A stretch of 50,496 nucleotides of DNA from Deltaproteobacteria bacterium. GTDB lineage: Bacteria; Desulfobacterota; Desulfobacteria; Desulfobacterales; Desulfatirhabdiaceae. The DNA lies in the NCBI GenBank assembly GCA_016219185.1, contig JACRBZ010000035.1, forward strand, positions 1 through 50,496, in the 5' to 3' direction. Every line of letters starts with the position of its first letter. Position 1 is the first letter of the stretch. Below are positions 103-49,424 of the stretch, one piece after another. A model generated the notes under the pieces. The model saw nothing but the letters and a program-made list of their open reading frames with translations. It searched no databases and was not told the origin of the DNA. Position numbers and translations under genes: made by a program.

Positions 103-2214
103 TTGCATATATCCTCTTTGTCTATTCGAAATTTCAGAAATTTTAAGAGTGCAAAACTGAGGTTCAAAAAAGGTATTAATACCGTCATCGGGGAAAATGG
201 CTCTGGAAAGACAAACCTATTTTTCGCGTTGAGAATACTAATCGACGATGCCCTACCACGCTACTTCAAGTTTTATCAGACCGATTTCAATAGGACGTTG
301 GAGAGTTGGGCAGGCCACTGGATAATTATTTCAATCGCGTTTAGCGGATTAGATGCGAGCGAAGAAGCTCAAACATTAGCTATCCAGTCCATCGGACACA
401 TGGAAACAGCTAAACATGGCAGCTATTCAGTATATTTCAGGCCCAAGTACCAATTCAGAAAAGAGCTGAACGACTATTCCAAAGTAGCAGGGAAAAATGC
501 GGCTGGTCTTAAACTTCTGCTGGATAAGCTGGCAATTGAAGATTATGAAACCGTCTACCTATGCAGAGGTACGGCGGACTTTAGTAAAAATGATATTTAT
601 AAACAATATGTTGGCGACTTTGACAAAATAGAGTTTCCAGACCCCGATGATAAACAAGAATTGTTATTCGGAACGTGGCTGCCCAAGGAAATAAACATTC
701 ATAACGAGCTTTCTTGCACATTTATTAAGGCATTGAGAGATGTTGACAGCGATTTGCGTTCATATTCAAACAACCCTTTAATAAGCCTTCTCAGAGGGAA
801 AGAGAAATCAGTTGAAGTTGCCAAACAACACGAAATTATTGAAAGTATTGATAGTCTAAATGAACAGATTAGCACACTTGACGAAGTAATGGACGTTAAG
901 AATGGAATTGATAAAAGTATTAAGGATACCGTTGGGACAACCTACGCACCAAATATAGACATTAAATCAGAGCTGCCAAATGAAATGGAAAAGCTATTCC
1001 AATCCTTGAAATTATGGATTGGCGATCCAGACGAGGATGGTCATAGAGGTAGAATATCAGAATTAAGTCTAGGAGGTGCAAACCTCATATATCTGTCGTT
1101 AAAGTTGCTAGAGTATGAAAAAGTAAAAACCGATAAAGTTGCAAATTTTCTTCTGGTTGAAGAACCGGAGGCACATGTACACACTCATATTCAGAAAACG
1201 CTTTTTAACAGCCTGCAAGAAAACAAAACCCAAGTCATTATATCCACCCATTCCACTCATATCTCGTCAGTTAGCAACATAAGCCGGGTAAATATTCTGA
1301 GTCGAGGAGACAAAGAGGCACATATATTTCACCCTTCAAAAGGACTGGAACAAAACGAGGTCGTCAGGATAGAGAGATACCTGGACGCAGTCAGAAGCAA
1401 CCTCCTTTTTGCCAAGGGGGTCGTATTAGTTGAAGGCGATGCTGAACAAATATTGATACCTGAAATGTTCAAAAAGGTTTTTGGCCTAACGTTGGATGAA
1501 ATAGGCGTTAGTCTGATTAATATTGGCAGCACCGGTTTTGAAAATGTTGCCAGGATCTTTCACCCTGACAGAGTAAGGAAAAATTGTTCAATCCTTACAG
1601 ACGGAGATGCTTCCATCGTTATGCTCCCAGGCGACCCTGAGCATGACAACGAATATCAGGCCCATTGTAGAGCTTCAGAAGAAAAAGGAAGGGAAAGGAA
1701 ACTCCGACTTACAGATTTTTGCAAAGGCAACAAGTATATAAAACCTATTTATTCAAAGCATACATTCGAAGTTGATTTCCTGATGAATTACAACAGCCAT
1801 GAGTTTGTTCATTGCCTTAACAAGATTTACAAAAATGAAGCTACAATCAATAAATCCAAAGAGAAACTCGAAAACGTTTCAGTTGAAGTTGCAGGAGTCG
1901 AAGTTTTAAGACTTGCGGATAAAATTGGTAAAGGCTGGTTAGCGTTGTTGGTAGCTGAACAACTGGTCTATAATACTTACATTCCAAACTATATTCTTGA
2001 GGCCATAGCATTTGCTGCAGCACATATAAATCTACCTTCCAAAGCAAAGGCAGCACTTCATCGTCTGAAACAAATTAAGGAGCACGACGGCAATTCATTA
2101 CAGGATCAGGCCAAGAAATTTGCAATTAAAGACAAAACACATGAAGAGCTTGTGACCAGCTTCATTGATAACTTTGAAGAAGACCAATTAACAGTGTTTT
2201 TAGCACTCATATGA
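103..2214 (+). CDS. gajA: OLD-family ATP-dependent endonuclease, Gabija GajA-like
   Basis: This 703-residue protein has an N-terminal ABC/SMC-type ATPase and a C-terminal TOPRIM nuclease domain. Visible motifs are Walker A GENGSGKTN (30-38), an ABC signature-like LSLGGAN, Walker B LLVEEPEA (about 350), a switch histidine in STHSTH, the TOPRIM glutamate in VLVEGDAE (about 443) and a DGD acidic pair in LTDGDAS (about 498). In Gabija, GajA is a sequence-specific DNA nickase held inactive by nucleotides and released when phage activity depletes them. The start is TTG: an AAAAGG stretch lies about 9 bases upstream and the first residues (MHISSLSIRNFRNF) match the usual beta strand of OLD ATPases. 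It is longer than the roughly 580 residues of characterised GajA, so a related class 2 OLD pair is possible. Its stop overlaps the next start by ATGA. Confidence 0.8.
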   Translation: MHISSLSIRNFRNFKSAKLRFKKGINTVIGENGSGKTNLFFALRILIDDALPRYFKFYQTDFNRTLESWAGHWIIISIAFSGLDASEEAQTLAIQSIGHMETAKHGSYSVYFRPKYQFRKELNDYSKVAGKNAAGLKLLLDKLAIEDYETVYLCRGTADFSKNDIYKQYVGDFDKIEFPDPDDKQELLFGTWLPKEINIHNELSCTFIKALRDVDSDLRSYSNNPLISLLRGKEKSVEVAKQHEIIESIDSLNEQISTLDEVMDVKNGIDKSIKDTVGTTYAPNIDIKSELPNEMEKLFQSLKLWIGDPDEDGHRGRISELSLGGANLIYLSLKLLEYEKVKTDKVANFLLVEEPEAHVHTHIQKTLFNSLQENKTQVIISTHSTHISSVSNISRVNILSRGDKEAHIFHPSKGLEQNEVVRIERYLDAVRSNLLFAKGVVLVEGDAEQILIPEMFKKVFGLTLDEIGVSLINIGSTGFENVARIFHPDRVRKNCSILTDGDASIVMLPGDPEHDNEYQAHCRASEEKGRERKLRLTDFCKGNKYIKPIYSKHTFEVDFLMNYNSHEFVHCLNKIYKNEATINKSKEKLENVSVEVAGVEVLRLADKIGKGWLALLVAEQLVYNTYIPNYILEAIAFAAAHINLPSKAKAALHRLKQIKEHDGNSLQDQAKKFAIKDKTHEELVTSFIDNFEEDQLTVFLALI

Positions 2215-3986
2215 TATTTGCTAAATTAAATGATGAACAGAAACTGGCTGTTAAGCAAGATGGCCATGTATTATTGACGGCTTGCCCCGGTAGTGGGAAA
2301 ACGCGAGTTCTTATCCATAAGCTTGCTTACAAGCTTAGGCAGCTTCCAGACAACACAAAGAGAAGAATTGCCGCTGTTACGTTCACGGTTAGAGCGTCAG
2401 AAGAGATATTTAGGCGTTTAAACGGAATAGGAATAAACAGCAATAAAATCTGGTCCGGCACCCTGCATTCATTTTGTTTTGAATGGATAATCAAGCCTTA
2501 TTCATGTTACCTGCCTGAGTTGACAAATGGTTTTGCCATAGCCGACGAAACCTTTACTTCAGATTTGATAAGCAGCTTAAAAGCTAAGTACGGCTTGAAA
2601 GAAATTGACCCAGTTAATTTGAGAATAAATAGGGAAGGAAGTTATGTTGAACAAAAGAGCATCCAGAAAAAGCTGCTCGCAGAATACCACAGCATCTTAA
2701 CAAGTAAGAAACTCATAGATTTTGAATTAATTCTTTATTATTCTTACAAATTACTAAAAACCTACCCCAGCATACAACTTACACTATCCAATATTTTTGG
2801 GTTGATATGTGTTGACGAATATCAGGATACTCAGGATTTACTTTACGCAATTATCTCCGAGATTATCAAGGCAGGAAATGGCAAGACATCTCTGTTTCTT
2901 GTTGGAGATATAGACCAAGCAATCTATGCCTCATTGGGAGGAGTTGCAAAAAGTATCGATGATATAAAATCAGAAATCAACAATATGCCAATAACCCATT
3001 TAACCCTCACTGGAAACTACAGGTCAAATCAGAGAATCATAGATTTCTATTCAAATTTCCAAACACAGAAGATTCAAATTCATGCAATTGGAGATAATGC
3101 CAATGAAGAAGGTACGATTACTTTCAACTCAGATGTTCACCACTCTAACATCGTCGATGAAATAGCAAGATTAATTCAATTAAGCCTGGACAGTGGCATT
3201 CAAGAAAATGAAATATGTGTCCTTGTTCCTCAGTGGTGGCTAATCACTGCAGTTTCAAAAAAACTACGTGCAGCACTCCCAGATGTTCATTTTGACGCTT
3301 CTGGGTTAGCCCCAATGTCAAAGAACAGGGAAAATATTTGGTATAAACTTTCACGGCTTTTTCTAACGGAACCAAACCCTAAAATCTATTCTTCCCGGTA
3401 TAGATGGGCAACGGATTTAATTGACAGTTTTAGAGTCGAAACTAACACCGAGTTCAATGAACGTTATAGAAAAGAACGTGACATGTTGAAGCTTATCAAT
3501 TCCATTAAGTCTACAGAAACCGAAGGCATTGATTATTTGAATGATTGTTTCGACCAATTCCTGGAAGCTGTAGCTATTGATTATCTCAAGTATCCTCAAC
3601 TGATCGAAAACAGGAAAATATTCTTTGACAGCATTGAGAAGCGATTAAAGGACGATACATTTAAAGTCCCAAGTGATATTCAGTCGTTCAAGAGCTTTTA
3701 TCGTGAGATGACGGGCGTAATTATCAACACTTGTGTCGGAGTGAAGGGCGAAGAATTCGATACCGTCATAGCCTACGGGCTTCTAAACGGATACATTCCC
3801 CATTGGAATGATATCTTTGCAGGTAACGCATCAGACGCAGCAAGAAAATTAATGTATGTCATTTGCTCACGAGCCAAGACTAATTTGCACCTCATAAGCG
3901 AAACAGGCAGAACAACGAAAAAGGGAGATGATTTGGAAATCACTCCCGAATTAGCAAAGTTAACTTTTGAATATGATGATATTTAA
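2211..3986 (+). CDS. gajB: UvrD/PcrA-like SF1 helicase, Gabija GajB-like
   Basis: This 591-residue superfamily 1A helicase shows motif I ACPGSGKTRVL (24-34), motif II VDEYQDTQ (about 201), motif III GDIDQAIYA, motif IV GNYRSNQRI, a motif V-like VGVKGEEFDTV and motif VI YVICSRAK near the C-terminus. The start overlaps the stop of the OLD nuclease gene (ATGA), so the two are translationally coupled. An OLD-TOPRIM nuclease followed by a UvrD-like helicase is the defining arrangement of Gabija. GajB is thought to sense or process DNA ends and to assist nuclease activation. The helicase motifs look complete, so the gene appears intact. I see no third gene in the operon. Confidence 0.8.
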   Translation: MIFAKLNDEQKLAVKQDGHVLLTACPGSGKTRVLIHKLAYKLRQLPDNTKRRIAAVTFTVRASEEIFRRLNGIGINSNKIWSGTLHSFCFEWIIKPYSCYLPELTNGFAIADETFTSDLISSLKAKYGLKEIDPVNLRINREGSYVEQKSIQKKLLAEYHSILTSKKLIDFELILYYSYKLLKTYPSIQLTLSNIFGLICVDEYQDTQDLLYAIISEIIKAGNGKTSLFLVGDIDQAIYASLGGVAKSIDDIKSEINNMPITHLTLTGNYRSNQRIIDFYSNFQTQKIQIHAIGDNANEEGTITFNSDVHHSNIVDEIARLIQLSLDSGIQENEICVLVPQWWLITAVSKKLRAALPDVHFDASGLAPMSKNRENIWYKLSRLFLTEPNPKIYSSRYRWATDLIDSFRVETNTEFNERYRKERDMLKLINSIKSTETEGIDYLNDCFDQFLEAVAIDYLKYPQLIENRKIFFDSIEKRLKDDTFKVPSDIQSFKSFYREMTGVIINTCVGVKGEEFDTVIAYGLLNGYIPHWNDIFAGNASDAARKLMYVICSRAKTNLHLISETGRTTKKGDDLEITPELAKLTFEYDDI

Positions 3987-4401: not shown

Positions 4402-4788
4402 ATGGGAAGCACAGGTTCAGGTCATTTTTCAGACTATCCTGGTACGAAGGCCAAGAAGGACGCTGGAGACGGAACAGGTACGGCAGGCGGCGCGAGCGGC
4501 GTTGACAAATGTAAACAGGCATTTCACGTATTGCTCGATGATGTTGGAAACAGCGACTTCTATTCGAAGTTCAATAATGTCCCGGCTGTTGGCGACCAAT
4601 TGGGAATCCTCTTCGACAAGAAGCGTGTCTTCGCAGTCGATGTGAATGGTGTTAAGGTTGGAGCGCTCCCCACATCATTCAATTATCTAGTAGCGTGTCT
4701 GGAAGACGACGTAACTTATGTCGGATTGGTGAGCTCCTCCGCAGTCTTGCCCGTCCCTACCGTAGCTGCTGACTTCGTGCCTCAATAA
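4402..4788 (+). CDS. Small Gly-start protein of a QueC-associated defence-like operon
   Basis: This 128-residue protein begins MGSTGSGHFSDYPG, so Met removal would expose an N-terminal glycine in a flexible Gly/Ser-rich tail. A Gly/Ala/Lys-rich linker runs to about residue 45. The remainder is a compact, mostly beta, about 80-residue domain (GDQLGILFDKKRVFAVDVNG, then VGALPTSFNYLVACLEDDV) that vaguely recalls HIRAN-like small barrels. I do not recognise a named family. The start at 4402 is chosen because GAGGT lies 7 bases upstream. The next gene starts 2 bases after the stop. Partner proteins of QueC-like enzymes in Qat and type IV CBASS systems also begin with Met-Gly, so this is the likely substrate or target protein of the operon. 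That role is inference from context. Confidence 0.6.
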   Translation: MGSTGSGHFSDYPGTKAKKDAGDGTGTAGGASGVDKCKQAFHVLLDDVGNSDFYSKFNNVPAVGDQLGILFDKKRVFAVDVNGVKVGALPTSFNYLVACLEDDVTYVGLVSSSAVLPVPTVAADFVPQ

Positions 4789-4790
4789 TT

Positions 4791-6122
4791 ATGGCCCGCA
4801 TAGATGCTGTCCTAGTTGTTGGGGAGCTTGTTGTGGACTATACGCTCGCCCAGCATGGTGCGATGTGCAAGCTTCGTTTAGGTGGAGTCGGTCACGCCGC
4901 GAGGGGTTTATGGGCCGCAGAGCTCGAATACTCAGTTGCAGCTTTCTGCCCACAATACCTCGTTGACGAAGCAAAGGGCTACCTTGCCGAGTTCGGGTGC
5001 AAAGAGTTCATCTGGCTTGGTGACGTAGTCGGCGCACCAAACGTTATTCTTATTGGTGACGTGACGGAGGTTTCACACCAAGGTTACGAAGAGTTGATGC
5101 GTGATACCAAGGTCGTGAAATTTCATGACCCGCTACCGCGACTCGACGCTTACCAGAAGGTCGTTGTCTTTCCCGGTAGGTTCGATATCAACACTCTCGC
5201 CAGCGCGTTCGCTGAGGATGCACGGTTCTCGTTCGACATCGCGTACGACCTTGAGGACCTTTCATCGATCGAGGCGTTCAAAGGTCGCGTGGAGGCTGTC
5301 ATTATCTCGACGTCGTCCTCGCTGTTCAAACGGCTTGGCAAGATCGATATCGACACACTGATAGATTCAATAAAGACGCTTTCGTCGGACGTGTTCCTAC
5401 TCAAAGAGAATCGTGGTGGTAGCCGACTCTTTGACATGCGGAATGGCTGCGTCGAAGAGATACCAGCAACGTTGGGCCGCACCGTCAATTCAGTAGGCGT
5501 TGGGGATGTCTATACCGGCGTTATGGCAGGCCTTTCTCACAAAGGATGGAGCGAAGCGGCGTGGCGCGGATGCCAGGCCGCCACGGCGTACTCCCAGTCG
5601 ACATTTCCCGACGACATCAAGCGCGATGTGCAGCGCGGGTTCCGGCTCTCGCTGGAGGTGCTGCAAGCGCTCGGTGGAACGGTGCTCCCATGGCACCACC
5701 GCCAAAACTATTCAATCTACCTTGCCGGTCCGGACTTCTCGTACGTTGAAAAGCAGGAGCTTGATTGTGCTGCGGATAGTCTCACGTATCACAACTTCAA
5801 GGTGCGACGTCCCATCCTGAAGAATGGGGAGTTAAAGCGACCCGCGAGCGAGAGCGACCTGCGCCGCACGTATCAGATGGACTGTCATCTGCTAAAAGAA
5901 TGCGATGTGGTCTTCGCGGTTCCTCTCGACCGTGATCCTGGCACGCTCGTTGAGCTCGGAATGGCAATTGAGATGGGCAAGCCGGTCATCACCTACGACC
6001 CTCGGTGTGAAAATGAGAATACGATGGTGGTCGCCGGAAGTTCGATATACTCTGCGGACCTAGATACTTGCCTCAACGGTACTTTCAACGTTATTGCTAA
6101 ATTGAGGGCTGAATCGCAATGA
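4791..6122 (+). CDS. PfkB-family sugar/nucleoside kinase fused to a nucleoside 2-deoxyribosyltransferase-like domain
   Basis: Residues 1 to about 295 are a PfkB/ribokinase fold: a GGVGHAARG substrate loop (31-39) and the C-terminal anion-hole motif NSVGVGDVYTG (233-243), with Asp239 as the expected catalytic base. The usual GAGD reads GVGD. Residues about 306-440 match the nucleoside 2-deoxyribosyltransferase/DNPH1 fold: IYLAGPDF (309-316) and the catalytic-type Glu388 in GTLVELGMAIEMGKPVI. The fusion suggests handling of a (deoxy)nucleoside or freed base, for instance glycosidic bond cleavage or transfer with phosphorylation of the sugar. It lies between a Gly-start small protein and a QueC-like gene whose start it overlaps (ATGA). 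Alternatives are a dNTP-depleting effector or a supplier of a modified base. The domain calls are firm, the role is not. Confidence 0.75.
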   Translation: MARIDAVLVVGELVVDYTLAQHGAMCKLRLGGVGHAARGLWAAELEYSVAAFCPQYLVDEAKGYLAEFGCKEFIWLGDVVGAPNVILIGDVTEVSHQGYEELMRDTKVVKFHDPLPRLDAYQKVVVFPGRFDINTLASAFAEDARFSFDIAYDLEDLSSIEAFKGRVEAVIISTSSSLFKRLGKIDIDTLIDSIKTLSSDVFLLKENRGGSRLFDMRNGCVEEIPATLGRTVNSVGVGDVYTGVMAGLSHKGWSEAAWRGCQAATAYSQSTFPDDIKRDVQRGFRLSLEVLQALGGTVLPWHHRQNYSIYLAGPDFSYVEKQELDCAADSLTYHNFKVRRPILKNGELKRPASESDLRRTYQMDCHLLKECDVVFAVPLDRDPGTLVELGMAIEMGKPVITYDPRCENENTMVVAGSSIYSADLDTCLNGTFNVIAKLRAESQ

Positions 6123-6739
6123 AAAAAGTGCTACTTCTGGCTTCTGGCGGCCTGGACTCAACAACTGTTGGATACCAGCTCGCGGCAGCAGGTGTGGATG
6201 TCGTACCAATCTTTTTTGACTACGGGCAGCATTGCGTAGACATTGAGTGGAGTCGTGTAAATGAAGTTCTACCTTCCGATATGCAGCGGCCTGAACGTTT
6301 AAATATATCGGACATCTTCCGAGGTTCGCATTCGCGGTTGATTCGTGAAGCTGATCTCTGGACTGAAGAGATTAAGGATGACGATTTGTACATCCCATAC
6401 AGAACAATGCTATTCTTCGCCGCTACGGCGGCGCGTGCACAGACTGTTGGTATCCTGGATGCATATACTGGCTTCATCAACAGCAATCACGCCAAAGAAA
6501 TTGACTGTACTACCGAGTATATGGATAACCTTGACGGACTCACATCGAGTATTGGTTCCGTTCGCTTTCACTCGCCATTCCGCCATTCGTCCAAGGCCGA
6601 TGTAGCCAGGGCAGCTGCTGAGCTTGGTGTGCCTATCGGACGAACCTACTCGTGCCAAGTGTCCGCACAGTTTCCGTGCGGCGCGTGTCCAAATTGCGTC
6701 GAGCGCTTGAATGCATTGAAAGAGGCTAAGTTGGTATGA
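6119..6739 (+). CDS. QueC-like 7-cyano-7-deazaguanine synthase homologue (defence type)
   Basis: This 206-residue PP-loop ATPase has SGGLDST at 9-15, a QueC-type IPYRTM segment, and the C-terminal zinc-binding cysteines C179, C187, C190 and C193 (TYSCQVSAQFPCGACPNC). Housekeeping QueC converts 7-carboxy-7-deazaguanine to preQ0 with ATP and ammonia. No queD, queE or queF lies nearby, and the neighbours are a Gly-start small protein and a DNA glycosylase, which argues against queuosine synthesis. QueC homologues recur in Qat (QatC) and type IV CBASS (Cap9) defence operons. I infer that this enzyme activates and attaches a nucleobase, or forms an amide or nitrile, on the partner protein. ATGA overlaps link it to both adjacent genes. 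Confidence 0.8.
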   Translation: MKKVLLLASGGLDSTTVGYQLAAAGVDVVPIFFDYGQHCVDIEWSRVNEVLPSDMQRPERLNISDIFRGSHSRLIREADLWTEEIKDDDLYIPYRTMLFFAATAARAQTVGILDAYTGFINSNHAKEIDCTTEYMDNLDGLTSSIGSVRFHSPFRHSSKADVARAAAELGVPIGRTYSCQVSAQFPCGACPNCVERLNALKEAKLV

Positions 6740-7386
6740 CTAGTTCCGCAATAGAGGTGTTGCTCGTAGCGCGTCGCATCGCTAATCAAGCGAAGGATGA
6801 AGGTGTGCTCTTTGAGGAGAAATATCAGCGTGTTACTTGCGAGCACCTGGGAGCCGTTCTCGCGGATTCTGTGCTCCAGGCCGGGCTCAATTACACGACG
6901 GTTGTGCGTCCACGGGTGCTATCCATTCTGCAAGCGCATCCGAGTCGCCATTCGATTTCCTTATTGGTCTCGCTGATTAAGGACGGGGGGACAGGTGCAT
7001 TCTTGAATTGGCGTCATCACGAGAAGGTGAGCCGTTTCGAGGCACTGGTAGTTTTCTTGCAGAGGTGGGGAGTAGAGGATGTACAGGATTTGCGTGCAGG
7101 TCTATCATCTGACGAATTCTGCTATGCAATTCAAAGTGTTAGAGGTATCGGTCCGAAGACCGTCGATTATATGGCGTGCCTCGTCGGCATCGAGTCCATC
7201 GCAGTTGACCGCCACGTTCGCACGTTCGCAAAAGCGGTTGGTGTCGAGAATGACGACTATCACTTTCTGCGCGCGTCATTTTGCTGCGCTGCTGACCTTC
7301 TCTCACTTTCACGCCGAGAGTTTGACGCCTGGCTCTGGCGTCGAGCCGCAGCGCCGGCTCAGGTGCAGTTGGCTCTTACAGTATAG
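6736..7386 (+). CDS. HhH-GPD superfamily DNA glycosylase/lyase-like protein
   Basis: This 216-residue protein has a helix-hairpin-helix motif VRGIGPKTVDYMA (135-147). Lys141 sits where bifunctional glycosylases carry the Schiff-base lysine, and Asp158 in IAVDRHVRTF is the conserved catalytic aspartate. The endonuclease III 4Fe-4S cysteine cluster is absent at the C-terminus, so the protein is closer to OGG-like or compact HhH proteins. Type IV CBASS operons pair a QueC-like protein with an OGG-like glycosylase, so the same pairing here suggests a common chemistry around a modified base. It overlaps the QueC-like gene by ATGA and is the last gene of the operon. A hairpin at 7446-7488 follows. 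Confidence 0.75.
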   Translation: MTSSAIEVLLVARRIANQAKDEGVLFEEKYQRVTCEHLGAVLADSVLQAGLNYTTVVRPRVLSILQAHPSRHSISLLVSLIKDGGTGAFLNWRHHEKVSRFEALVVFLQRWGVEDVQDLRAGLSSDEFCYAIQSVRGIGPKTVDYMACLVGIESIAVDRHVRTFAKAVGVENDDYHFLRASFCCAADLLSLSRREFDAWLWRRAAAPAQVQLALTV

Positions 7387-8294: not shown

Positions 8295-8666
8295 ATGTGC
8301 TCGGCATTGAAAACGTGTTTCATTGTAAGCGGAGGGCATAACCCATAAGGTTTGATATGATCTGGCGACGTGAATAGAGTGCAAAAAGCTGGTCTTTCTC
8401 TCCCGGTCAGAATCAATCCCTTGTTCAAGAAGCCCGGTTAAAGAGACACCATTTATAAGGGGATTGCTCCGAAAGAGGATGCGGGTATAGCGGTATAATT
8501 GGAGAGTGACCATCACGGCTTTAAGCCCAAAACAGACTGGCAAACAGTGATGATAGTAGTTGAATTCGCTGTATCAAATTGATTTGCATCCTTAGATGGT
8601 ATGGTCAGGTATTCTATAGCGCAGAAATAATGCACTTGCACGTATAAACTGCCGCGGATCGGCTTA
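8295..8666 (+). other. Non-coding stretch upstream of an attC site
   Basis: No frame longer than about 25 codons with a plausible start is seen on the + strand. Frames on the - strand are shadow-like. The stretch may be the decayed 3-prime part of a cassette. I see no clear hairpin or promoter. Confidence 0.3.
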
Positions 8667-8758
8667 CTTGAACGAGTGCGTGAACCGGACGCGCGGGGAC
8701 AAGTGGTGCTGTTTTCTTCAAGCTCCTTGGCCGCGCACCGGTTACGCTGGTGTTGGGC
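8667..8758 (+). other. attC: Integron attC site
   Basis: Left arm GCGTGAACCGG (8678-8688) pairs with CCGGTTACGC (8738-8747) with one unpaired base, and GCGCGG (8691-8696) pairs with CCGCGC (8731-8736). The outer right core is GTTGGGC (8752-8758, fits GTTRRRY), with a degenerate AAC-ended left core near 8667-8673. The arms are imperfect with extrahelical bases, and the loop between them is about 34 bases. This is typical of attC sites and unlike a terminator. The toxin cassette begins immediately after. Confidence 0.75.
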
Positions 8759-8799
8759 GGATCACCTGGAATCACTATGAATAATGGAGGAAAGGCATA

Positions 8800-9126
8800 A
8801 TGGAAAAGGCAGTATGGATGAGCTTCGACCTTGGAGTCAGGGGCGATTATGAAGGCTTGTACGCATGGCTTGACTCAAAAAGAGCCATTGAATGTGGAGA
8901 TAGCTTTGCATTTTTTAAATATGATGTTTCGAAGGATATTGTTGAAAGCCTTAAGAAGGAAATCAAAGAAAATGTGGAAGTAAACAAGAAGACACGTATT
9001 TATGTAATTTTCCGTGATGCTATAACAAAGAAAATGAAAGGAAAATTTATTTTTGGCAGTAGAAAGGCTGCTCCTTGGGCCGGATATTCAGGTAGTCAAG
9101 ATCAGACGGAAGAAGAGGAGCTATAG
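8800..9126 (+). CDS. Putative antitoxin of a PIN-domain toxin pair
   Basis: A 108-residue soluble acidic protein has a strong ribosome binding site (GGAGG about 13 bases upstream). It ends 3 bases before the PIN gene. Segments such as WMSFDLGVRGDYEGLYAWLD and an alternating strand/helix pattern do not match an antitoxin family I know well. The antitoxin role is inferred from its position in front of, and tight spacing to, a PIN toxin. Toxin-antitoxin pairs are frequent in integron arrays and are thought to stabilise them. An attC site ends 41 bases upstream, so the gene opens the cassette. Confidence 0.6.
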   Translation: MEKAVWMSFDLGVRGDYEGLYAWLDSKRAIECGDSFAFFKYDVSKDIVESLKKEIKENVEVNKKTRIYVIFRDAITKKMKGKFIFGSRKAAPWAGYSGSQDQTEEEEL

Positions 9127-10977: not shown

Positions 10978-11028
10978 CAGATTAATGGAGCCGACTCCCT
11001 ACAGTCGTGGCTCATCATCATGTTGGGT
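10972..11028 (+). other. attC: Integron attC site
   Basis: The left core CCATAAC (10972-10978) overlaps the preceding stop codon. The stem GAGCCGAC (10988-10995) against GTCGTGGCTC (11004-11013) has two extrahelical bases. The right core GTTGGGT is at 11022-11028. The length of 57 bases and the asymmetrical bulges fit attC. Confidence 0.7.
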
Positions 11029-11061
11029 GCGATATTAATCAGAAGTAGAGGAAAACAAAGA

Positions 11062-12246
11062 ATGAAAATTAAACAATTGGATATCGAGGGATTCCGTTCT
11101 CTCCGAAAGGTAAACTGGTCTCCTGGTGACCTCAATGTGATTATTGGTCCCAATGGGACTGGCAAATCAAATTTGCTACGTTTTTTAGAATTAATTTCCA
11201 TATCAGCACAAGGTAAATTAGGTAAATATATTCAATCGTTAGGCGGAATGGACCCAATCGTTTGGGATGGATCCGCCACTTCCATAAAGTTTGTTCTTGA
11301 ATCAACGCCTGAAGGCGGGGAGTTAGGCCCTGAACATTATGAGCTTGAACTTGCTCGGCTAGGGCCAGGGAGTTCTTATAAGGTCGAAAAAGAACTTTTG
11401 ATAAATTCTCATAAATTAAAGAAACGTATTGAAAGAAAACCGTTTAAATTTTTAGAACGTTATTCAAAAACTGCCGTTATTTTTGATGAAAAAGAACGTA
11501 CCTTTACCACCCCTGAAGAGTTTATCTCAGACGAAGAGAGCCTCCTTTCAATAACGTCTGGACCATTTATTAATAATCACTTCATCCCGCCATATCAAAG
11601 GGCACTGGCTTCAATAGCAGTTTATCATGATCTGCATACCAATAAGAATGCTTCCGTTCGTCAACCAGCTATTTCTCGCATGGAAAAGCGAGTTGACCCT
11701 GATGGACAAAATCTTATATCTGTGATGCACACACTTTACACAGGAGACCGTGATTTCAAAAAAGACATTAATTCTGCAATGCAAGCTGCATTTGGCGATG
11801 ATTTTGAAGAGTTAGTTTTCCCACCCGCTTCTGATCAGAGAATTCAAATGCGGATTCGTTGGAAATCACTGAGACGAGAACAATCGGCTGCTGAACTTTC
11901 AGATGGAACACTCCGCTTCTTGTTTTTGTTAACGGTTTTGGCAAGCCCGACACCAGCTCCAATCATTGCAATTGATGAGCCTGAAACAGGTCTCCATCCA
12001 TCAATGCTTCCGCTGGTTGCGGAATATGCGGCTGACGCGGCCAACAGATCTCAAGTCATACTCACAACGCATTCTCCACAATTTCTGGATGCTTTCGTTG
12101 GGGTTCGACCCACGACAACTGTTGCAAAATGGGAAAATGGTGAAACCATATTGCAAACACTGAAAGAGAAAGAACTTGACTACTGGCTGAAGGAATACTC
12201 GCTTGGGTCTCTTTTTAAATCCGGGGAATTGGAGCAAATGGGATGA
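11062..12246 (+). CDS. AAA/OLD-like ABC ATPase of a two-gene defence module
   Basis: This 394-residue ATPase shows Walker A GPNGTGKSN (29-37), a degenerate ABC signature ELSDGTLRFLFLL, Walker B IIAIDEPETGLHP (about 298-310) and an H-loop LTTHSPQF. It has the AAA_21/RecF-like head without a TOPRIM domain. The partner encoded next is a DUF4276 protein that could supply a TOPRIM-like function. ATPase plus TOPRIM-like two-gene layouts include PARIS (AriA/AriB) and related systems, in which the ATPase senses the phage and releases the effector. Start 11062 is chosen over 11020 because MKIKQLDIEGFRSL is the standard N-terminal strand of these ATPases and the upstream residues fall next to the attC core. 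It overlaps the next gene by ATGA. Confidence 0.75.
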   Translation: MKIKQLDIEGFRSLRKVNWSPGDLNVIIGPNGTGKSNLLRFLELISISAQGKLGKYIQSLGGMDPIVWDGSATSIKFVLESTPEGGELGPEHYELELARLGPGSSYKVEKELLINSHKLKKRIERKPFKFLERYSKTAVIFDEKERTFTTPEEFISDEESLLSITSGPFINNHFIPPYQRALASIAVYHDLHTNKNASVRQPAISRMEKRVDPDGQNLISVMHTLYTGDRDFKKDINSAMQAAFGDDFEELVFPPASDQRIQMRIRWKSLRREQSAAELSDGTLRFLFLLTVLASPTPAPIIAIDEPETGLHPSMLPLVAEYAADAANRSQVILTTHSPQFLDAFVGVRPTTTVAKWENGETILQTLKEKELDYWLKEYSLGSLFKSGELEQMG

Positions 12247-12863
12247 AATTTATTCTTTTTGTTGAAGGATATACAGAAGACAAGGCGTTGCCAAAATTTT
12301 TTAGAAAATGGCTTGATCCAAAATTAAACAATCCTATCGGAATCAAAACCGTTCGCTTTGAAGGCTGGCCTGAACTCGTGAAAGATGCTCCGCTGAAAGC
12401 AAAAATGCATTTGAGCGGTCCATATAAAGACGATATTGTTGCTGTAATATCATTATTGGACCTTTACGGTCCGACCTTTTATCCCAATAATCTAAAAGGC
12501 TGCGATGAACGATACAAATGGGCCAAGCTGGATATCGAAAAAAAGGTAAATCATCCAAAATTTTTTCAATTTTTTGCGGTTCATGAAGTTGAGGCTTGGC
12601 TTCTTAGTCAGCCAGAACTCTTCCCTTTGGAAGTCAAAAATGCATTCCCAAAAAAAATCCAAAAACCAGAAACGGTAAACTTCAATGAGCCGCCGGCAAA
12701 ATTACTGGAACGTCTTTATCCTATGCATATGAAGCGGTCATATAAAAAGGTAGTGAATGGCAAAGAGCTTTTCGGCAGACTCGATCCGAACATCGCATAT
12801 CAAAAATGTCCAAAACTTAAAGAACTCATAGACAAAATGCTGGAGTTGGCCCAACCGCATTAA
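12243..12863 (+). CDS. DUF4276-family (TOPRIM-like) protein, partner of the ATPase
   Basis: This 206-residue protein has the DUF4276 pattern: an N-terminal strand with FVEGYTEDKALPKF (Glu8 the first acidic residue), AVISLLDLYGP with a second acidic site, and VHEVEAWLLSQPELF with further acidic residues. The DUF4276 family has been compared with TOPRIM nucleases and commonly follows an AAA ATPase gene, as here. It starts inside the ATPase gene (ATGA overlap) and ends inside the left arm of an attC site, so ATPase and DUF4276 form one cassette of about 1.9 kb. Likely role: the effector nuclease, or an RNase, released or switched on by the ATPase. The effector role is inference. Confidence 0.7.
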   Translation: MKFILFVEGYTEDKALPKFFRKWLDPKLNNPIGIKTVRFEGWPELVKDAPLKAKMHLSGPYKDDIVAVISLLDLYGPTFYPNNLKGCDERYKWAKLDIEKKVNHPKFFQFFAVHEVEAWLLSQPELFPLEVKNAFPKKIQKPETVNFNEPPAKLLERLYPMHMKRSYKKVVNGKELFGRLDPNIAYQKCPKLKELIDKMLELAQPH

Positions 12864-44825: not shown

Positions 44826-44972
44826 AAGATTGGAAAGAGAAAGTGGATTACATGCGGACAGAATAAAATTCCGATATCGCAGGTACATCCTGACATCTCT
44901 CAGATGTTGGAAAGATTTCCAGAAAATATTAAATCTCATGTTGGAAAATGGAATTGGGATCGAAGATGTTAA
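44826..44972 (+). pseudogene. C-terminal remnant of an unknown gene
   Basis: A frame without a start, opened after TGA 44823-44825, ends at TAA 44970-44972, overlapping the methyltransferase start (ATGTTAA). It encodes about 48 residues ending HPDISQMLERFPENI, SHVGKWNWDRRC. The MLERFPENI segment resembles the partial gene at the left window edge. The gene may have been cut by insertion of the module. Family unknown. Confidence 0.35.
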
Positions 44973-46258
44973 TACCACGCAATCCAAAACGAACAAATCA
45001 GAACTCGCCGACTCATATTAACTGGTTTCCATACTATGCAGGCTTCAGTTCCGAATTCGTTCACGATGTGTTGAGCAGTTTTACGCTTCGAAAAGAAGAC
45101 ACTATCCTTGATCCGTGGAACGGTAGCGGCACCACGACCACCACGGCGTACAGGCTAGGGGCAAAGGTCATCGGCTGTGATATCAACCCGGTCATGGTCG
45201 TGGCTGCAAAAAGTGCTCTTCTCGAACCCGGTATCTCACCAAGCCTTGTGCCACTATCCGAAGAGATCCTACACGCAACAGACACAATTGAGCTTTCAAT
45301 GGCCAATGATCCTCTATCTGCTTGGTACACCCCTTCGAGTGCGATTGAGTTACGTCGTATTCACTTAGCCATTTGGAGGGCGCTAGTCAACTCAGATTCA
45401 CCGCCGTCTCTTCATTCCCGTGATATTTCGAACATGTCAACGATAGCGGCTTTTTTCTTGATCGCACTTATGCGAACAGCCCGTCACTTTCTCGCCGCCT
45501 TCGTGGGATCAAATCCAACTTGGATTCGAACGCCAGATTCACCTGCTAAACGAGTTCGCCCTTCAAAAGACAGCCTGTTCACCCATTTCAGAACCGAAGT
45601 TCGTAGGATGGCGGGGACACTATCGGCAGCGCGTGCGAACGGACTTGAAACATCTCGTCAAGGGGCAAGCCCAACGATTTCTATGATGTCCTCCACGTCG
45701 CTACCATTTAACTCAGGGTCAATTAAGGCGGTTGTCTCATCTCCGCCATACCTAACCCGCATTGACTATGCTGTAGCAACAAAACCTGAATTAGCGGCTC
45801 TCGGAATGCCGCTTTCTGAAGATTTCGATACGCTTCGAAAGTCTATGATTGGTACCCCGTCTGTCCGTCAGAATTTCTTACATCCTCTTTTGACGGGCAA
45901 GACGTGTGATTCATTCTTAAAAGCGGTCGAAAAGCATCATTCAAAAGGGTCGCACAATTACTATCACAAATTGTTTGTGCAATATTTTTCAGACATGTCG
46001 GATTCACTCAAAGAGATCGCTCGTCTGCTAGTCAAGAAGGGGAATTGCGTTCTTGTTGTCCAAGATTCTTTCTACAAGGAGATTCACGTCGATCTTGCAC
46101 AGTTCGTTATTGAAATTGCACAGAACAAAGGCTTATCCTTAATTGACCGTCACGATTTCAAATGGGACCGAAACATGGTACGAGTCAACACTCGTGCCCG
46201 CAAGTACCGGGAATCTGCTGCCGCTGTTGAGTCCGTTATCTGCTTCAGAAAAGATTAG
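44966..46258 (+). CDS. DNA methyltransferase (N4-C / N6-A type)
   Basis: About 430 residues, with motif I DPWNGSGTTTTTAYRLGA and a following acidic VIGCDINPVM, and motif IV VVSSPPYLTRIDY. SPPY is typical of N4-cytosine and some N6-adenine enzymes. A recognition-like region lies between motif I and IV, and the second half has a helix-rich NYYHKLFVQYFSDM. Target sequence unknown. ATG 44966 (MLIPRNPKRTNQN) is preferred to 44948. It is the first gene of a three-gene set with a DUF262 protein (9-base gap) and a HEPN protein, so it may mark self DNA or a modified target. Confidence 0.75.
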   Translation: MLIPRNPKRTNQNSPTHINWFPYYAGFSSEFVHDVLSSFTLRKEDTILDPWNGSGTTTTTAYRLGAKVIGCDINPVMVVAAKSALLEPGISPSLVPLSEEILHATDTIELSMANDPLSAWYTPSSAIELRRIHLAIWRALVNSDSPPSLHSRDISNMSTIAAFFLIALMRTARHFLAAFVGSNPTWIRTPDSPAKRVRPSKDSLFTHFRTEVRRMAGTLSAARANGLETSRQGASPTISMMSSTSLPFNSGSIKAVVSSPPYLTRIDYAVATKPELAALGMPLSEDFDTLRKSMIGTPSVRQNFLHPLLTGKTCDSFLKAVEKHHSKGSHNYYHKLFVQYFSDMSDSLKEIARLLVKKGNCVLVVQDSFYKEIHVDLAQFVIEIAQNKGLSLIDRHDFKWDRNMVRVNTRARKYRESAAAVESVICFRKD

Positions 46259-46267
46259 GAGAGCAAA

Positions 46268-47401
46268 ATGCCACCCATCGACGCAACAGCCCTCATACAA
46301 GCGGCTGACGAACAAGTTGCTAAAGTTCGCACGCAGGGCAAGGACTACTCGTTTAACGAACTTCTAAGCATGTACGAGGACAATGAGTTGATCATCGATC
46401 CTGATTATCAAAGACTGTTTCGTTGGTCAGAAGTTCAAGCTTCCCGTTTCATCGAATCCGTGATACTTGAACTCCCTCTTCCTCCTATATTTGTTATCGA
46501 GATCGACGATGGGAAATACGAATTAATCGATGGTTTGCAACGTATCTCCTCGTATTTCTATTTTCGTGGGAAGTTGAAGGCACCACACAGAAATATCAAT
46601 CCCGGCGATGTGCTTGCACTTGATGGTTGCGATATTGTGACCGAGCTCGACGGCTATACGTATGAATCTTTGCCCCGTGCATTGGAAATTAAACTTAAGA
46701 GGCATACGATCAGAGTTGAGGTCATTCGAAAAGAAAGCGAAAGCCGTATTCGTTATCACATGTTTAAGCGTTTGAACAAGGGAGGTTCCGTCCTTTCCGA
46801 ACAGGAGATCCGCAACTGTACCATCAGGCTGCTTGACAATACAGTGAACAAATTCCTCATTGAGTGTAGTAAGAACATAGATTTTGCCAACACTGTATCC
46901 CCGATAAATCAGCAGCGAATGGATGAACGTTTCGATCAGGAACTTGTGCTTCGTTTCTTCGCTTTCAAGAACTGGCGAAATAACTACGTTCATGAAGTTG
47001 GTGAGTTCTTGACCAAATACATGGAGTCGGTTGCCGACCCAGACAAAGATGATGTCACTTTGGACTATGATGCGGAACAAAATGTATTCGAGAAGACGTT
47101 TCGAATACTGAACGCGTCGATGGGGAATGATGCTTATGCAATAGTAGATAAAAGAGGGCGAACTCTTCCGTTTAGTGTGTATCACTTTGAAGCGTTTTCG
47201 CTTGGACTTCAACCTCATATGGCAGAGATAGATCCCAACAACGAGGACCAGATGAAGAAGCTGTCAGAGTGCTTCTGGGAAATCAAGAAGGACGGAGTAT
47301 TTCGAGACATTACTACGGGAGGTGGAAAGAATTTCCTCAATCCTTTGAATCAACGAATTGTTTTCGTTGCCGATCGGATCGGAGGAATCAAATGGACGTA
47401 G
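46268..47401 (+). CDS. DUF262 (ParB-like/GmrS-type) protein
   Basis: The 377-residue protein has the DUF262 pattern NELLSMYEDNELIIDPDYQR, FRWSEVQASRFIESVIL and PPIFVIEID, with the DGLQRISS nucleotide-binding loop (about 90-97). DUF262 proteins bind or hydrolyse NTPs and often sense modified DNA (GmrS, BrxU). No HNH/DUF1524 nuclease domain follows, so the effector is probably the next gene. Good frame and no lesions. Start codon overlaps: HEPN starts at 47392, 10 bases before the end of this gene. Confidence 0.8.
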   Translation: MPPIDATALIQAADEQVAKVRTQGKDYSFNELLSMYEDNELIIDPDYQRLFRWSEVQASRFIESVILELPLPPIFVIEIDDGKYELIDGLQRISSYFYFRGKLKAPHRNINPGDVLALDGCDIVTELDGYTYESLPRALEIKLKRHTIRVEVIRKESESRIRYHMFKRLNKGGSVLSEQEIRNCTIRLLDNTVNKFLIECSKNIDFANTVSPINQQRMDERFDQELVLRFFAFKNWRNNYVHEVGEFLTKYMESVADPDKDDVTLDYDAEQNVFEKTFRILNASMGNDAYAIVDKRGRTLPFSVYHFEAFSLGLQPHMAEIDPNNEDQMKKLSECFWEIKKDGVFRDITTGGGKNFLNPLNQRIVFVADRIGGIKWT

Positions 47402-48087
47402 CGGAGGTCAGAGCCGAGCTTGAGGAAGAGTTGAGTTGCCGCCTCGAAGAAATCCGCTTCTTCCGCAATCAGCTCGGAGAAATGCATAGGGTTGACGACA
47501 AGGAGCGTTACTGCAAATGCCTTGTGGTCATGCTTTATGCTCACTTCGAGGGATTCTGGAAGGCGGCTTTCAGTATCTACCTAAAAGCGATCAATAAAGA
47601 AAACATTAAGTGTAGAGACGCTGTCGCACAGATTGTAGCTGCGAGTATGAGTGATCTATTCAACGCACTATCCGATTCGAACAGTAAGTGTGCATTCTTT
47701 CGGAAATCTGCTCCCGACGACACGAAATTACATCGGTTTGCTCGCCATTCTGAGTTTGCAGGACGAATCGACAAAGCGTTTGAAGCCACTGTCAAGATCC
47801 CAATCGATGACGTTGTTGATACCGAGTCGAATCTATCGACAGTCGTTCTTCGGAAGAACCTGTTTAGGCTTGGTTTCTCCCATGAGGAATTCAAAAGAGA
47901 AGAGGGGACAATCAATGAATTGTTACGGCGTCGGAACGACATTGCTCACGGAAGTGCGCGCAAAGGTGTGCCATTAGATTTGTACTCGAACCTCGAATTT
48001 GCTGTGATTGGTGTCATGAAACGTGTTGTCATATTGATATTCGACTCTTTGAATGCACGGAGGTTTCTTCGTTCAGTTGCCACTTGA
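47392..48087 (+). CDS. HEPN-domain RNase-like protein (MAE_28990/MAE_18760 type)
   Basis: The protein has 231 residues from ATG 47392, which lies inside the end of the DUF262 gene. The fold is all-helical with the HEPN catalytic motif RNDIAHG (Rx4-6H type) near residue 179 and an aromatic YCKCLVVMLYAHFEGFWKAA helix typical of the MAE_28990 family. HEPN proteins of this type are RNase toxins or effectors. I infer that the DUF262 partner controls it, with the methyltransferase giving self-recognition. The upstream frame to 47269 is only a reading inside the DUF262 gene. Confidence 0.75.
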   Translation: MDVAEVRAELEEELSCRLEEIRFFRNQLGEMHRVDDKERYCKCLVVMLYAHFEGFWKAAFSIYLKAINKENIKCRDAVAQIVAASMSDLFNALSDSNSKCAFFRKSAPDDTKLHRFARHSEFAGRIDKAFEATVKIPIDDVVDTESNLSTVVLRKNLFRLGFSHEEFKREEGTINELLRRRNDIAHGSARKGVPLDLYSNLEFAVIGVMKRVVILIFDSLNARRFLRSVAT

Positions 48088-48246
48088 TGTTACCTCGAAT
48101 TTAGGTGGGAGATATGGAGGGGCCGGTTAAAACCTACATGAAGAATAGTGAGGGGCTTTAAAGCCAAGTCGGTTATGGAGTGAGGTGGTGGGAAATCAAT
48201 GGACACTTTGTTAAGTGTGGATTGATATTTCACCAGGAGGTGTTCA

Positions 48247-48376
48247 ATGGAAAAGAAGAGAAGGGAATACCCACTGGAATTTAAAGAAGAAGCGGGTAAG
48301 CTGATTACTGGAAAGGGGGCATCATAAATTACCGATGCCCTCCGGAATTTCTGAGTCAATGACAACATATTGAAGT
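48247..48376 (+). pseudogene. Degenerate IS3-family transposase OrfA remnant
   Basis: ATG 48247 opens MEKKRREYPLEFKEEAGKLI, the usual start of IS3 OrfA, and stops at 48325-48327. In another frame ITDALRNF, VNDNILK resembles the AARNLGVNDNILRRW-type end of the helix-turn-helix. Frameshifts and stops are present and OrfB is absent. Upstream, ACACTT-TGTT-AAGTGT (about 48203-48218) may be the relic of the terminal repeat. The rest of 48088-48596 holds nothing else I can name. Confidence 0.65.
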
Positions 48377-48596
48377 GATGAAGTCGTTAGGTTGAAGGAG
48401 TCTGAGAAGACGCTCAGGGTTTACAAGTTGAAATAGCAAAGTTGGCAGAACAACTTAACCCTTCGGAAAGATTATAAGCGCTTGAATTCCGCAGAGACAC
48501 CTTACTTAATTCCTGGCTGACTATGATTATCCTTAATAATTATGTAGGGTGTTCTCAGAATCCCCCAGAATTCTTTAACAATAGATCGGAGTAACA

Positions 48597-49412
48597 ATGA
48601 GCCTCTTAATATACTTTATGTTTTTAATCACTAGCATTTTTGTAATCTTTATCGCCCAGCCAAACACTCCTGTTTCAACGTTGGCTTATAGTGTTGCAGC
48701 AGCTCTCTTAACAATGATAGTTCAAATCATTGCAAGTATAACGACAAATATACGTGAAGGACTGAATTTTGTGTATATTTTCTGTTTGTATTATAATAAA
48801 GTAGTTAGAGTATCAATATCGTATCTTTTCAGAATAAAAATTGAAAATAAATACCTCCTTGTAAAAGGTGCTCGTCTAAAACATCAATTTCAACCAGTTG
48901 GAGGCGTATACAAGTATTTACCTTCAGCTAGCAGTATTTTAAAATGCCTTGATGTGCACGACGACAATATGGTCTGTATTGATGGTGTTGCAAAAGAAGA
49001 TTTGCGCATAAGAATTAAAGGTAAACATTACCACTCGTTATTCAAATGGTTTTTCTCTAATAAAAACAGAGAAACTTCTCCTTATAGGGAATTCTTTGAA
49101 GAATTGGTTTCTTCTGGAATTCTAAGCCGTGATAATTTTTCATATATATTTTACGAGTATATTGGTTCACGGTCATTAATGAACAAATTTTCCCATTTTG
49201 CACAAAGCCCTGAGGTTATATATGCGAACATTTACGAACTGACCCCGACAAAAAAACAAAAAGAAGAGCTGAAGCAATTACTATCAAAAGGAAATACAGA
49301 GAACTATATTTGGGTAACATATGAAGAAATTATGAAGGAAGGTGTTATGGATCAAATTGACAATACTAGCAGAATCAAAATCATCTCAAGAACTGCACAA
49401 TGGGTAGCTTAG
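48597..49412 (+). CDS. Two-TM protein with SMODS-associated-type NUDIX domain
   Basis: The 271-residue protein has two N-terminal TM helices (about 2-20 and 27-50), then a NUDIX-like domain: YLLVKGARLKHQFQPVGGVY, DLRIRIKG, and REFFEELVSSGIL matching the NUDIX box REUxEExGU. The layout resembles the NUDIX proteins linked to CD-NTase (SMODS) systems, which are thought to hydrolyse or sense a nucleotide-type signal at the membrane. No CD-NTase is in the window. The next gene encodes a nucleotide kinase-ParB fusion 12 bases later. GGAG lies 6 bases before the ATG. The role is inference. Confidence 0.7.
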   Translation: MSLLIYFMFLITSIFVIFIAQPNTPVSTLAYSVAAALLTMIVQIIASITTNIREGLNFVYIFCLYYNKVVRVSISYLFRIKIENKYLLVKGARLKHQFQPVGGVYKYLPSASSILKCLDVHDDNMVCIDGVAKEDLRIRIKGKHYHSLFKWFFSNKNRETSPYREFFEELVSSGILSRDNFSYIFYEYIGSRSLMNKFSHFAQSPEVIYANIYELTPTKKQKEELKQLLSKGNTENYIWVTYEEIMKEGVMDQIDNTSRIKIISRTAQWVA

Positions 49413-49424
49413 GAGATAATTTAA

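Follow-up and report, generated by a model that had tools for sequence, protein, structure and literature searches.

A conserved four-gene operon pairing a QueC-like enzyme with a Gly/Ser-tailed small protein, a candidate anti-phage system

A stretch of 50,496 nucleotides from a Deltaproteobacteria bacterium (contig JACRBZ010000035.1), hereafter the window, carries at positions 4402-7386 an operon of four genes encoding a small protein opening MGSTGSG, a PfkB-like/nucleoside 2-deoxyribosyltransferase (NDT) fusion, a QueC-like enzyme and a helix-hairpin-helix (HhH) glycosylase-family protein. The operon is conserved and is probably an anti-phage system of the kind in which a QueC-family enzyme modifies the N terminus of a protein: with ATP, the QueC-like enzyme would activate a purine-like base that bears a carboxyl group and attach this base to the glycine at the N terminus of the small protein. 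The system would by analogy work like the type IV cyclic-oligonucleotide-based anti-phage signalling system (CBASS) and like Qat, and would be a member of neither. This reading is built on the gene set, its order and coupling, the catalytic motifs of three enzymes and the recurrence of the tail on unrelated proteins, all taken from sequence, and on HIRAN and HhH folds that are predicted from structure models.

The four genes and their products

Related loci were collected in a species-genome scan (43 loci) and a viral-contig scan (12 loci), giving 55 in total. In the window all four genes lie on the plus strand, with a 2-base gap between the small protein and the fusion and ATGA overlaps at the fusion/QueC-like and QueC-like/HhH junctions.

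The small protein (4402-4788, 128 residues) is the likely substrate of modification, as suggested by its Gly/Ser tail and predicted HIRAN fold in a homologue search, an AlphaFold2 (AF2) model and fold searches. The ATG at 4402 was taken as its start because homologues mostly begin MGSS or MGST, the mechanical open reading frame (ORF) beginning upstream at GTG 4294. A total of 204 homologues were found at E<=1e-3; among the 120 listed, 98 begin MGSS or MGST, three MGTS and one VGSS, and Gly2 is kept in all 116 of the aligned rows that cover it. The N-terminal tail (residues 1-35, 4402-4506, MGSTGSGHFSDYPG...) was delimited using Gly2 conservation, the tail motif and the predicted local distance difference test (pLDDT), and is predicted to be disordered, with pLDDT below 50 at residues 1-5 and 12-31; a disordered tail starting with Gly is the partner-protein feature of type IV CBASS and Qat, the comparison here being with the cyclase of a type IV CBASS locus (L162). 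Of 56 small proteins, 55 have the motif [MV]GS[ST]GSG, one of them with V as its first residue, a conservation that is partly by construction since the tail motif formed part of the seed of the genome and viral-contig scans; the motif is followed in all 55 by FSDY, LSDY or FTDY, giving the consensus MGS[ST]GSGxFSDY, and the sole miss (L013) belongs to a locus at a contig end. Three loci from a plasmid collection that were found through the fusion (L060-L062) carry the tail in every case (MGSSGSGNFSDY, MGSTGSGSFSDY and MGSTGSGSFTDY). A tail rule, requiring G or S at residue 2, G or S at five or more of residues 2-8 and at least two G, was passed by none of the 357 ORFs of the control loci and, in the 43 genome loci, by one ORF of about 772 that do not encode the small protein (the initial count of 785 included 13 small proteins, which were subtracted). 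The body of the protein (residues 40-128, 4519-4785) is predicted to adopt a HIRAN fold by the AF2 model and fold searches, the results of which name DNA complexes. The HIRAN domain of HLTF provides a precedent for binding DNA 3' ends.

The QueC-like enzyme (6119-6739, 206 residues) is a PP-loop protein and a likely base-to-protein ligase. It matches PF06508 with 100.7 bits (1e-28) and the PADLOC QueC model at 1.2e-22, and its closest solved structure is Cap9 (9nto_B, 1.5e-8), followed by E. coli QueC, which is nearly as close (5.5e-8). The SGGLDS PP-loop (residues 9-14, 6143-6160), the four cysteines of the Zn motif CQ(x)6CGACPNC (Cys179, 187, 190 and 193; 6653-6697) and the residues of EIDC (127-130, 6497-6508), which stands where canonical enzymes have the YPDC substrate motif, are each conserved in 95% or more of 50 distinct sequences, the window included. 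Asp129 of EIDC is invariant in all 14 aligned rows (13 paralogs and one canonical enzyme) and matches the position of the base-reading Asp described for Cap9 and QueC in PMC13279940. Among the Cap9-type motifs given in PMC13329287 (YxDC, Y/FxQ(x)5E and CE(x)6CxxCxxCxD), the window enzyme has YGQ(x)5E and CQ(x)6CxxCxxCxE, with EIDC instead of YxDC. Against the equivalog model TIGR00364 it scores 87 bits, with a cut-off of 150.3 bits.

The fusion (4791-6122, 443 residues) matches PF05014 in its C-terminal part (4.4e-15, 56.3 bits against a cut-off of 28.8). Its motif DPGTLVE (5934-5954) contains Asp382 and Glu388, which have a catalytic role in this family; D382, G384, T385 and E388 are each conserved in 95% or more of 52 distinct fusion sequences, as are the residues of the PfkB-type motif GVGD (residues 236-239, 5496-5507). 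A Pfam search with the window fusion did not match the PfkB family. An hhalign profile match to the fusions of a second type of operon (described below) was obtained for the PfkB-like half at E 3.1e-21, over residues 194-427 only, and one second-type fusion in that profile matches PF00294.

The HhH-GPD/OGG-like protein (6736-7386, 216 residues) was assigned no family by Pfam, as was the small protein, and a search of the PDB with its sequence gave nothing firm. The PADLOC OGG model matches it at 3e-6, and a structure model settles the predicted fold as HhH-GPD, with Lys141 (7156-7158) and Asp158 (7207-7209) in place; both residues are kept in at least 95% of 47 distinct sequences.

An earlier, sequence-only reading of the window had described the four genes with their overlaps and gap, an intact PP-loop with four Zn cysteines, an HhH protein with Lys141 and Asp158 and a small protein opening MGSTGSG, and all of these were found at the positions it gave, with the conservation set out above. 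Its description of a PfkB-deoxyribosyltransferase fusion held for the deoxyribosyltransferase half; the PfkB half, which Pfam did not find, rests on GVGD and the profile match. The predicted HIRAN fold of the small protein and a Gabija pair upstream of the operon were no part of that reading.

Conservation, spread and defence surroundings

The order small protein, NDT fusion, QueC-like enzyme, HhH protein, with all four genes, is kept in 49 of the 55 related loci, and chance clustering was therefore rejected. This recurrence in other genomes was a point on which the sequence-only reading could have failed. The six exceptions comprise four operons that end at a contig end (L011, L053, L058 and L059) and two that are broken inside a contig, within the fusion gene (L044) and within QueC (L047). 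The HhH gene of one locus (L008) was counted as present although it is divided between two frames.

From the names in record titles, we take the hosts to span Gamma-, Beta- and Alphaproteobacteria and Bacteroidota. The fusion gene was found in none of 56 relatives of the host, and the operon DNA is 88% identical to a copy in Billgrantia pellis; given this patchy occurrence and DNA identity, the operon is likely mobile and horizontally spread, as judged from sequence comparison. Phage records gave no match to the window-type fusion, and a blastn search of E. coli genomes with the Kosakonia operon gave none either.

A complete Gabija pair, GajA (5.1e-285) and GajB (4.4e-232), occupies positions 103-3986 of the window and ends 415 bases upstream of the operon; its G+C content is 38.7%, against 53.1% for the operon. 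Flanks were scanned with PADLOC models of 2023 for 20 of the 43 genome loci and for 20 control stretches near QueC or QueD genes of host genomes, taking up to seven flanking ORFs (greedy choice, 100-1300 residues) and scanning each protein alone. At E<=1e-20, 92 PADLOC families were matched in 139 flanking ORFs compared with 22 in 138 control ORFs, counts in which models overlap, so that families are not proteins, and in which one control stretch (L167) that is itself a defence island, of the Dpd kind, supplies 20 of the 22 control matches. This control is a QueC/QueD/QueE cluster with matches to DpdA, two DpdB, DpdC and DpdF, in a Chelativorans genome that also holds an operon of the present type (L042). 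Among the 25 flank matches listed, dGTPase is represented by three proteins, type I restriction enzyme, NsnB, mad3 and HEC-03B by two each, and type III restriction, PtuA, KwaB, AbiEii and Dsr1 by one each; an RtcR-type regulator, which is not a defence gene by itself, accounts for two more.

Relation to known and related systems

An OGG-like protein is a usual part of type IV CBASS, and the operon shares with that system (CD-NTase, the QueC-like Cap9 and the tRNA-guanine transglycosylase (TGT) Cap10) a small QueC-like enzyme, an OGG-like HhH protein and a Gly/Ser-tailed partner. It differs in its partner, predicted to be a HIRAN protein, in its PfkB-like/NDT fusion and in having Glu for the Tyr of YxDC. 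No CD-NTase was found at 59 window-type loci, the window included, using tblastn with the L162 cyclase, and no PADLOC match to one in the four proteins; tblastn with two TGT queries likewise found no TGT at these 59 loci or at 17 second-type loci, some of the loci in both searches having short flanks. Membership of type IV CBASS was rejected on these two absences. In type IV CBASS, Cap9 conjugates a 7-deazaguanine to Gly2 of the cyclase, and in Qat, Gly2 of QatB is essential, according to PMC11996544 and PMC13279940.

With Qat, the operon has in common a QueC-family enzyme and a partner with an unstructured Gly-start N-terminal tail (PMC13279940). However, QatC is described in PMC13329287 as a protein of about 400 residues with N- and C-terminal extensions and has Thr-x-Thr in the substrate site, whereas the window enzyme has 206 residues, and QatB is helical (PMC13279940), whereas the window partner has a predicted HIRAN fold. 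No KAP ATPase (PF07693) was found in the window's own genome, and Qat membership was rejected for this reason and for the length of the QueC-like protein.

The second type of operon corresponds to Cluster 4 of PF06508 of Libby et al., in which PF00294-PF05014 is reported for about 88% of operons and read as purine salvage (PMC13329287). It also has a PfkB-NDT fusion by a QueC paralog and a related tailed small protein in front (profile E 3.2e-10); the description of Cluster 4 in the available sections of PMC13329287 mentions neither a small tailed protein nor a defence role, and the main text of that paper uses neither the word HhH nor the word glycosylase. The window QueC clade is set apart from Cluster 4/second type by the tree (100/99) and by the Zn motif, CQ(x)6CGACPNCVE compared with CH(x)5CxxCxGCxK in most second-type rows. 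Second-type tails are mostly MSGSG, and an OGG-type gene, where seen, lies upstream or on the opposite strand.

A third, TIR type, found in Rhizobium/Agrobacterium and on a viral contig (L086), has the PfkB-type protein, HhH protein, QueC paralog and Gly-tailed partner in common with the window; it differs in carrying its tail on a TIR protein, in having a TIR-TGT fusion and in the loss of the NDT motif. No name for the TIR type was found in the literature searched, and neither the four-gene set nor the tail protein was found named in CC-licensed PMC papers. The claim of the sequence-only reading that the set is not a named system thus stood within those papers, with the qualification that the pairing of a QueC paralog with PfkB-NDT is published as Cluster 4 (PMC13329287). 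Its likeness to Qat and type IV CBASS held for the tail, shared in kind with the CBASS cyclase, and for the OGG-like HhH protein, and did not extend to membership; the absence of CD-NTase, TGT and KAP ATPase that it had noted was borne out over the loci and genome given above.

Tails and base-exchange enzymes across the variants

The second- and TIR-type loci used come from 15 of the 37 plasmid records with a query coverage of 80% or more, from three of 22 E. coli records and from the five near-full-length IMG/VR loci. Of 5426 E. coli genomes, 22 gave a match to the second-type fusion, which in 18 covers at least 80% of the query; among phage records none of 14 covers 80%, among 80 kept IMG/VR loci it is mostly covered in five only, and in the host's class one of 389 genomes gave a match, which is partial (L075).

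The tail rule was passed by the HIRAN-like small proteins of 15 of 17 second-type loci (failing in L070 and L080), a count that leaves out L069, where the tail gene is cut by an insertion sequence, and the fragment L075, and that includes tails alike in L063 and L067 and, over the first 12 residues, in L068. Position 2 is Ser in 14 of these 17 and Gly in three; where the tail begins MS, the acceptor would be Ser. In the TIR type the tail is carried by the TIR protein in five of five loci (MGGGSSGS, MGGGGGGD, MGGGGGGN, MGGSSTGG), and in the single type IV CBASS locus, L162, the cyclase tail passes the rule (MGGSGGGFFSNSD, MGGSGGGFFS).

The DxGTxxE motif is invariant in eight of eight aligned second-type fusions and missing from the five TIR-type fusions, in all of which GxGD is still present. 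TGT, which was not found at the window-type and second-type loci searched, was found by tblastn in five of five TIR-type loci and in the type IV CBASS locus, with a PADLOC TGT match of 1.8e-22 on L073. Each variant thus seems, on these sequences, to carry one base-exchange enzyme, either deoxyribosyltransferase or TGT, which favours a role of that enzyme on the tail-borne base; the suggestion of the sequence-only reading that the fusion takes the place of TGT is in keeping with this pattern. In its make-up, the TIR type appears to link type IV CBASS with the PfkB-NDT systems.

Several of these loci have further contents. Three second-type loci (L067, L068 and L063) comprise a set of tailed small protein, PfkB-NDT fusion, QueC paralog and nitroreductase-like protein, with OGG and Dam on the opposite strand and a dGTPase. 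The haloarchaeal second-type loci L065 and L077 have tails of the MGGG kind, that of L065 being very long and acidic, and, judged by eye, two HIRAN-like repeats. In L066 and L071 second-type operons adjoin multiubiquitin/ThiF genes, another likely protein-conjugation system, and in L072 a VUT-family protein annotated as queuosine salvage (8492-9067) lies directly behind the operon. The TIR-type loci (L073, L074, L078, L079 and L086) contain a TIR-TGT fusion, HhH protein, QueC paralog, separate Gly-tailed TIR protein and PfkB-type protein without NDT motif, one set including a Ti plasmid record.

Host deazaguanine pathway and identity of the base

The genomes of 30 of the 43 genome loci were searched for the 7-deazaguanine pathway, with two QueE models applied to the 16 without canonical QueC, to four others and to the window's own genome. 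A QueC match above 180 bits besides the paralog was found in 14 of the 30 hosts and a PF01242 (QueD-type) match in 21. Nine hosts (L016, L020, L022, L024, L025, L030, L035, L036 and L039, of which L022 and L036 are metagenome-assembled genomes by title) gave no canonical QueC, QueD or QueE, with both QueE models at 1e-5 and genome completeness not stated. 7-Carboxy-7-deazaguanine would thus not be available in these nine by known enzymes; the base there would be taken up, made by other enzymes, or be another carboxyl-bearing base. The base of this system could well be something other than 7-carboxy-7-deazaguanine. In the window's own genome all three functions are represented: a canonical QueC (255 bits), a QueD-type protein and an adjoining QueE-like gene, whose QueE match is below its cut-off.

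Proposed mechanism and alternative explanations

In the mechanism considered here, Met would be removed from the small protein to expose Gly2, and the tail would enter the active site of the QueC-like enzyme, as in Cap9 and as modelled for QatC. The deoxyribosyltransferase half of the fusion may then bind or exchange the base on the tail, perhaps adding deoxyribose, which the PfkB-like half could phosphorylate. The HhH protein would recognise or remove the base, or survey DNA, and the HIRAN body would sense DNA ends during infection, the modification arming or releasing it.

A number of observations weigh against this reading. At the position of the base-stacking Tyr, the window type has Glu, the second type His and the TIR type Phe; the clade that unites the window QueC with Cap9 and the TIR type is weak (89/86) and has long branches; and E. 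coli QueC lies nearly as close as Cap9 among the solved-structure matches. To these are added the two second-type tails that fail the rule and the Ser starts of most others, the nine hosts without the pathway, the partial seeding of the scans on the tail, and the overlapping models and defence-island control in the flank counts.

Among the alternatives, a nucleoside salvage or nucleotide-pool cluster handling modified (deoxy)nucleosides, with the small protein only a regulator or scaffold, survives best, although it is rather unlikely. Purine salvage was proposed by Libby et al. for QueC paralogs with PF00294-PF05014 neighbours (PMC13329287), the fusion motifs are conserved, and tblastn places dGTPase genes near four of the 59 window-type loci and five of the 17 second-type loci. 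However, the one such dGTPase that was scanned alone (L063) matches the PADLOC dGTPase model, the spread is patchy and island-bound, with the fusion absent from the 56 relatives and Gabija and other defence genes as neighbours, and a tail of the kind found on a CBASS cyclase and on TIR proteins is not expected of a salvage set.

The deoxyribosyltransferase half might instead be a toxic N-glycosidase, an abortive effector restrained by the small protein and freed on infection, with the QueC-like enzyme acting only as a switch; we regard this as distinctly unlikely. NDT-like effectors of some retrons are toxic N-glycosidases, the term nucleoside deoxyribosyltransferase occurs in papers on retrons, and DxGTxxE is kept in the window type as well as in the aligned second-type fusions. 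Nevertheless, no PADLOC model matches the fusion at E<=0.01, and the fusion of the TIR variant is retained but has lost the motif, TGT and TIR being carried instead, so that NDT activity looks replaceable by a base-exchange enzyme.

It is very improbable that the operon is a cassette for DNA-base modification or repair, in which the QueC-like enzyme makes a base, the fusion makes a deoxynucleotide, the HhH protein edits DNA and HIRAN targets ends. DNA-binding-type folds predicted in two of the four proteins, and the DNA adenine methylase and OGG-type genes beside second-type loci, would fit such a cassette, but the two TGT queries found no TGT-like transglycosylase, some hosts are without the 7-deazaguanine pathway and the tail motif is left unexplained. 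Finally, an ordinary second QueC for queuosine can be practically dismissed: the PF06508 match is above cut-off and no further full-length QueC-family match was seen in 16 of 30 hosts, yet the TIGR00364 score is below cut-off, YPDC is replaced by EIDC, the window's genome has a separate canonical QueC adjoining the QueE-like gene, and 9 of those 16 hosts also are without QueD and QueE and hence have no queuosine pathway for a second QueC to serve.

If N-terminal protein modification by the QueC-like enzyme is indeed the function, base-to-protein conjugation would be an immune family sharing a tail tag, with interchangeable sensors and base-exchange enzymes, and type IV CBASS and Qat would not be two isolated oddities. 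A new kind of protein marking would be added to bacterial immunity, and a role would be found for proteins at present classed under salvage or repair, namely those with a HIRAN fold, the PfkB-NDT fusions and the OGG-like proteins. What QueC-family enzymes attach in hosts without the 7-deazaguanine pathway would become testable, a question that stands equally for Qat (PMC13279940). A broader proposal, which we advance tentatively and hold to be doubtful, is that QueC-family enzymes load a base other than 7-carboxy-7-deazaguanine on the Gly/Ser tails of unrelated sensors (HIRAN, TIR or cyclase) and that a deoxyribosyltransferase or TGT then places this protein-borne base on a sugar by exchange; with the PfkB-like kinase, the HIRAN sensor would become a protein-deoxynucleotide conjugate at DNA ends.

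Other genes of the window

Two further groups of genes in the window have matches of the defence kind. A HEC-01-like pair (PADLOC), consisting of an AAA-type ATPase and a weaker-scoring partner, lies at 11020-12863, and a second defence patch at 44948-50342 encodes a methyltransferase together with NsnA-like, 2TM/NUDIX effector-like and pVip-kinase-like proteins.

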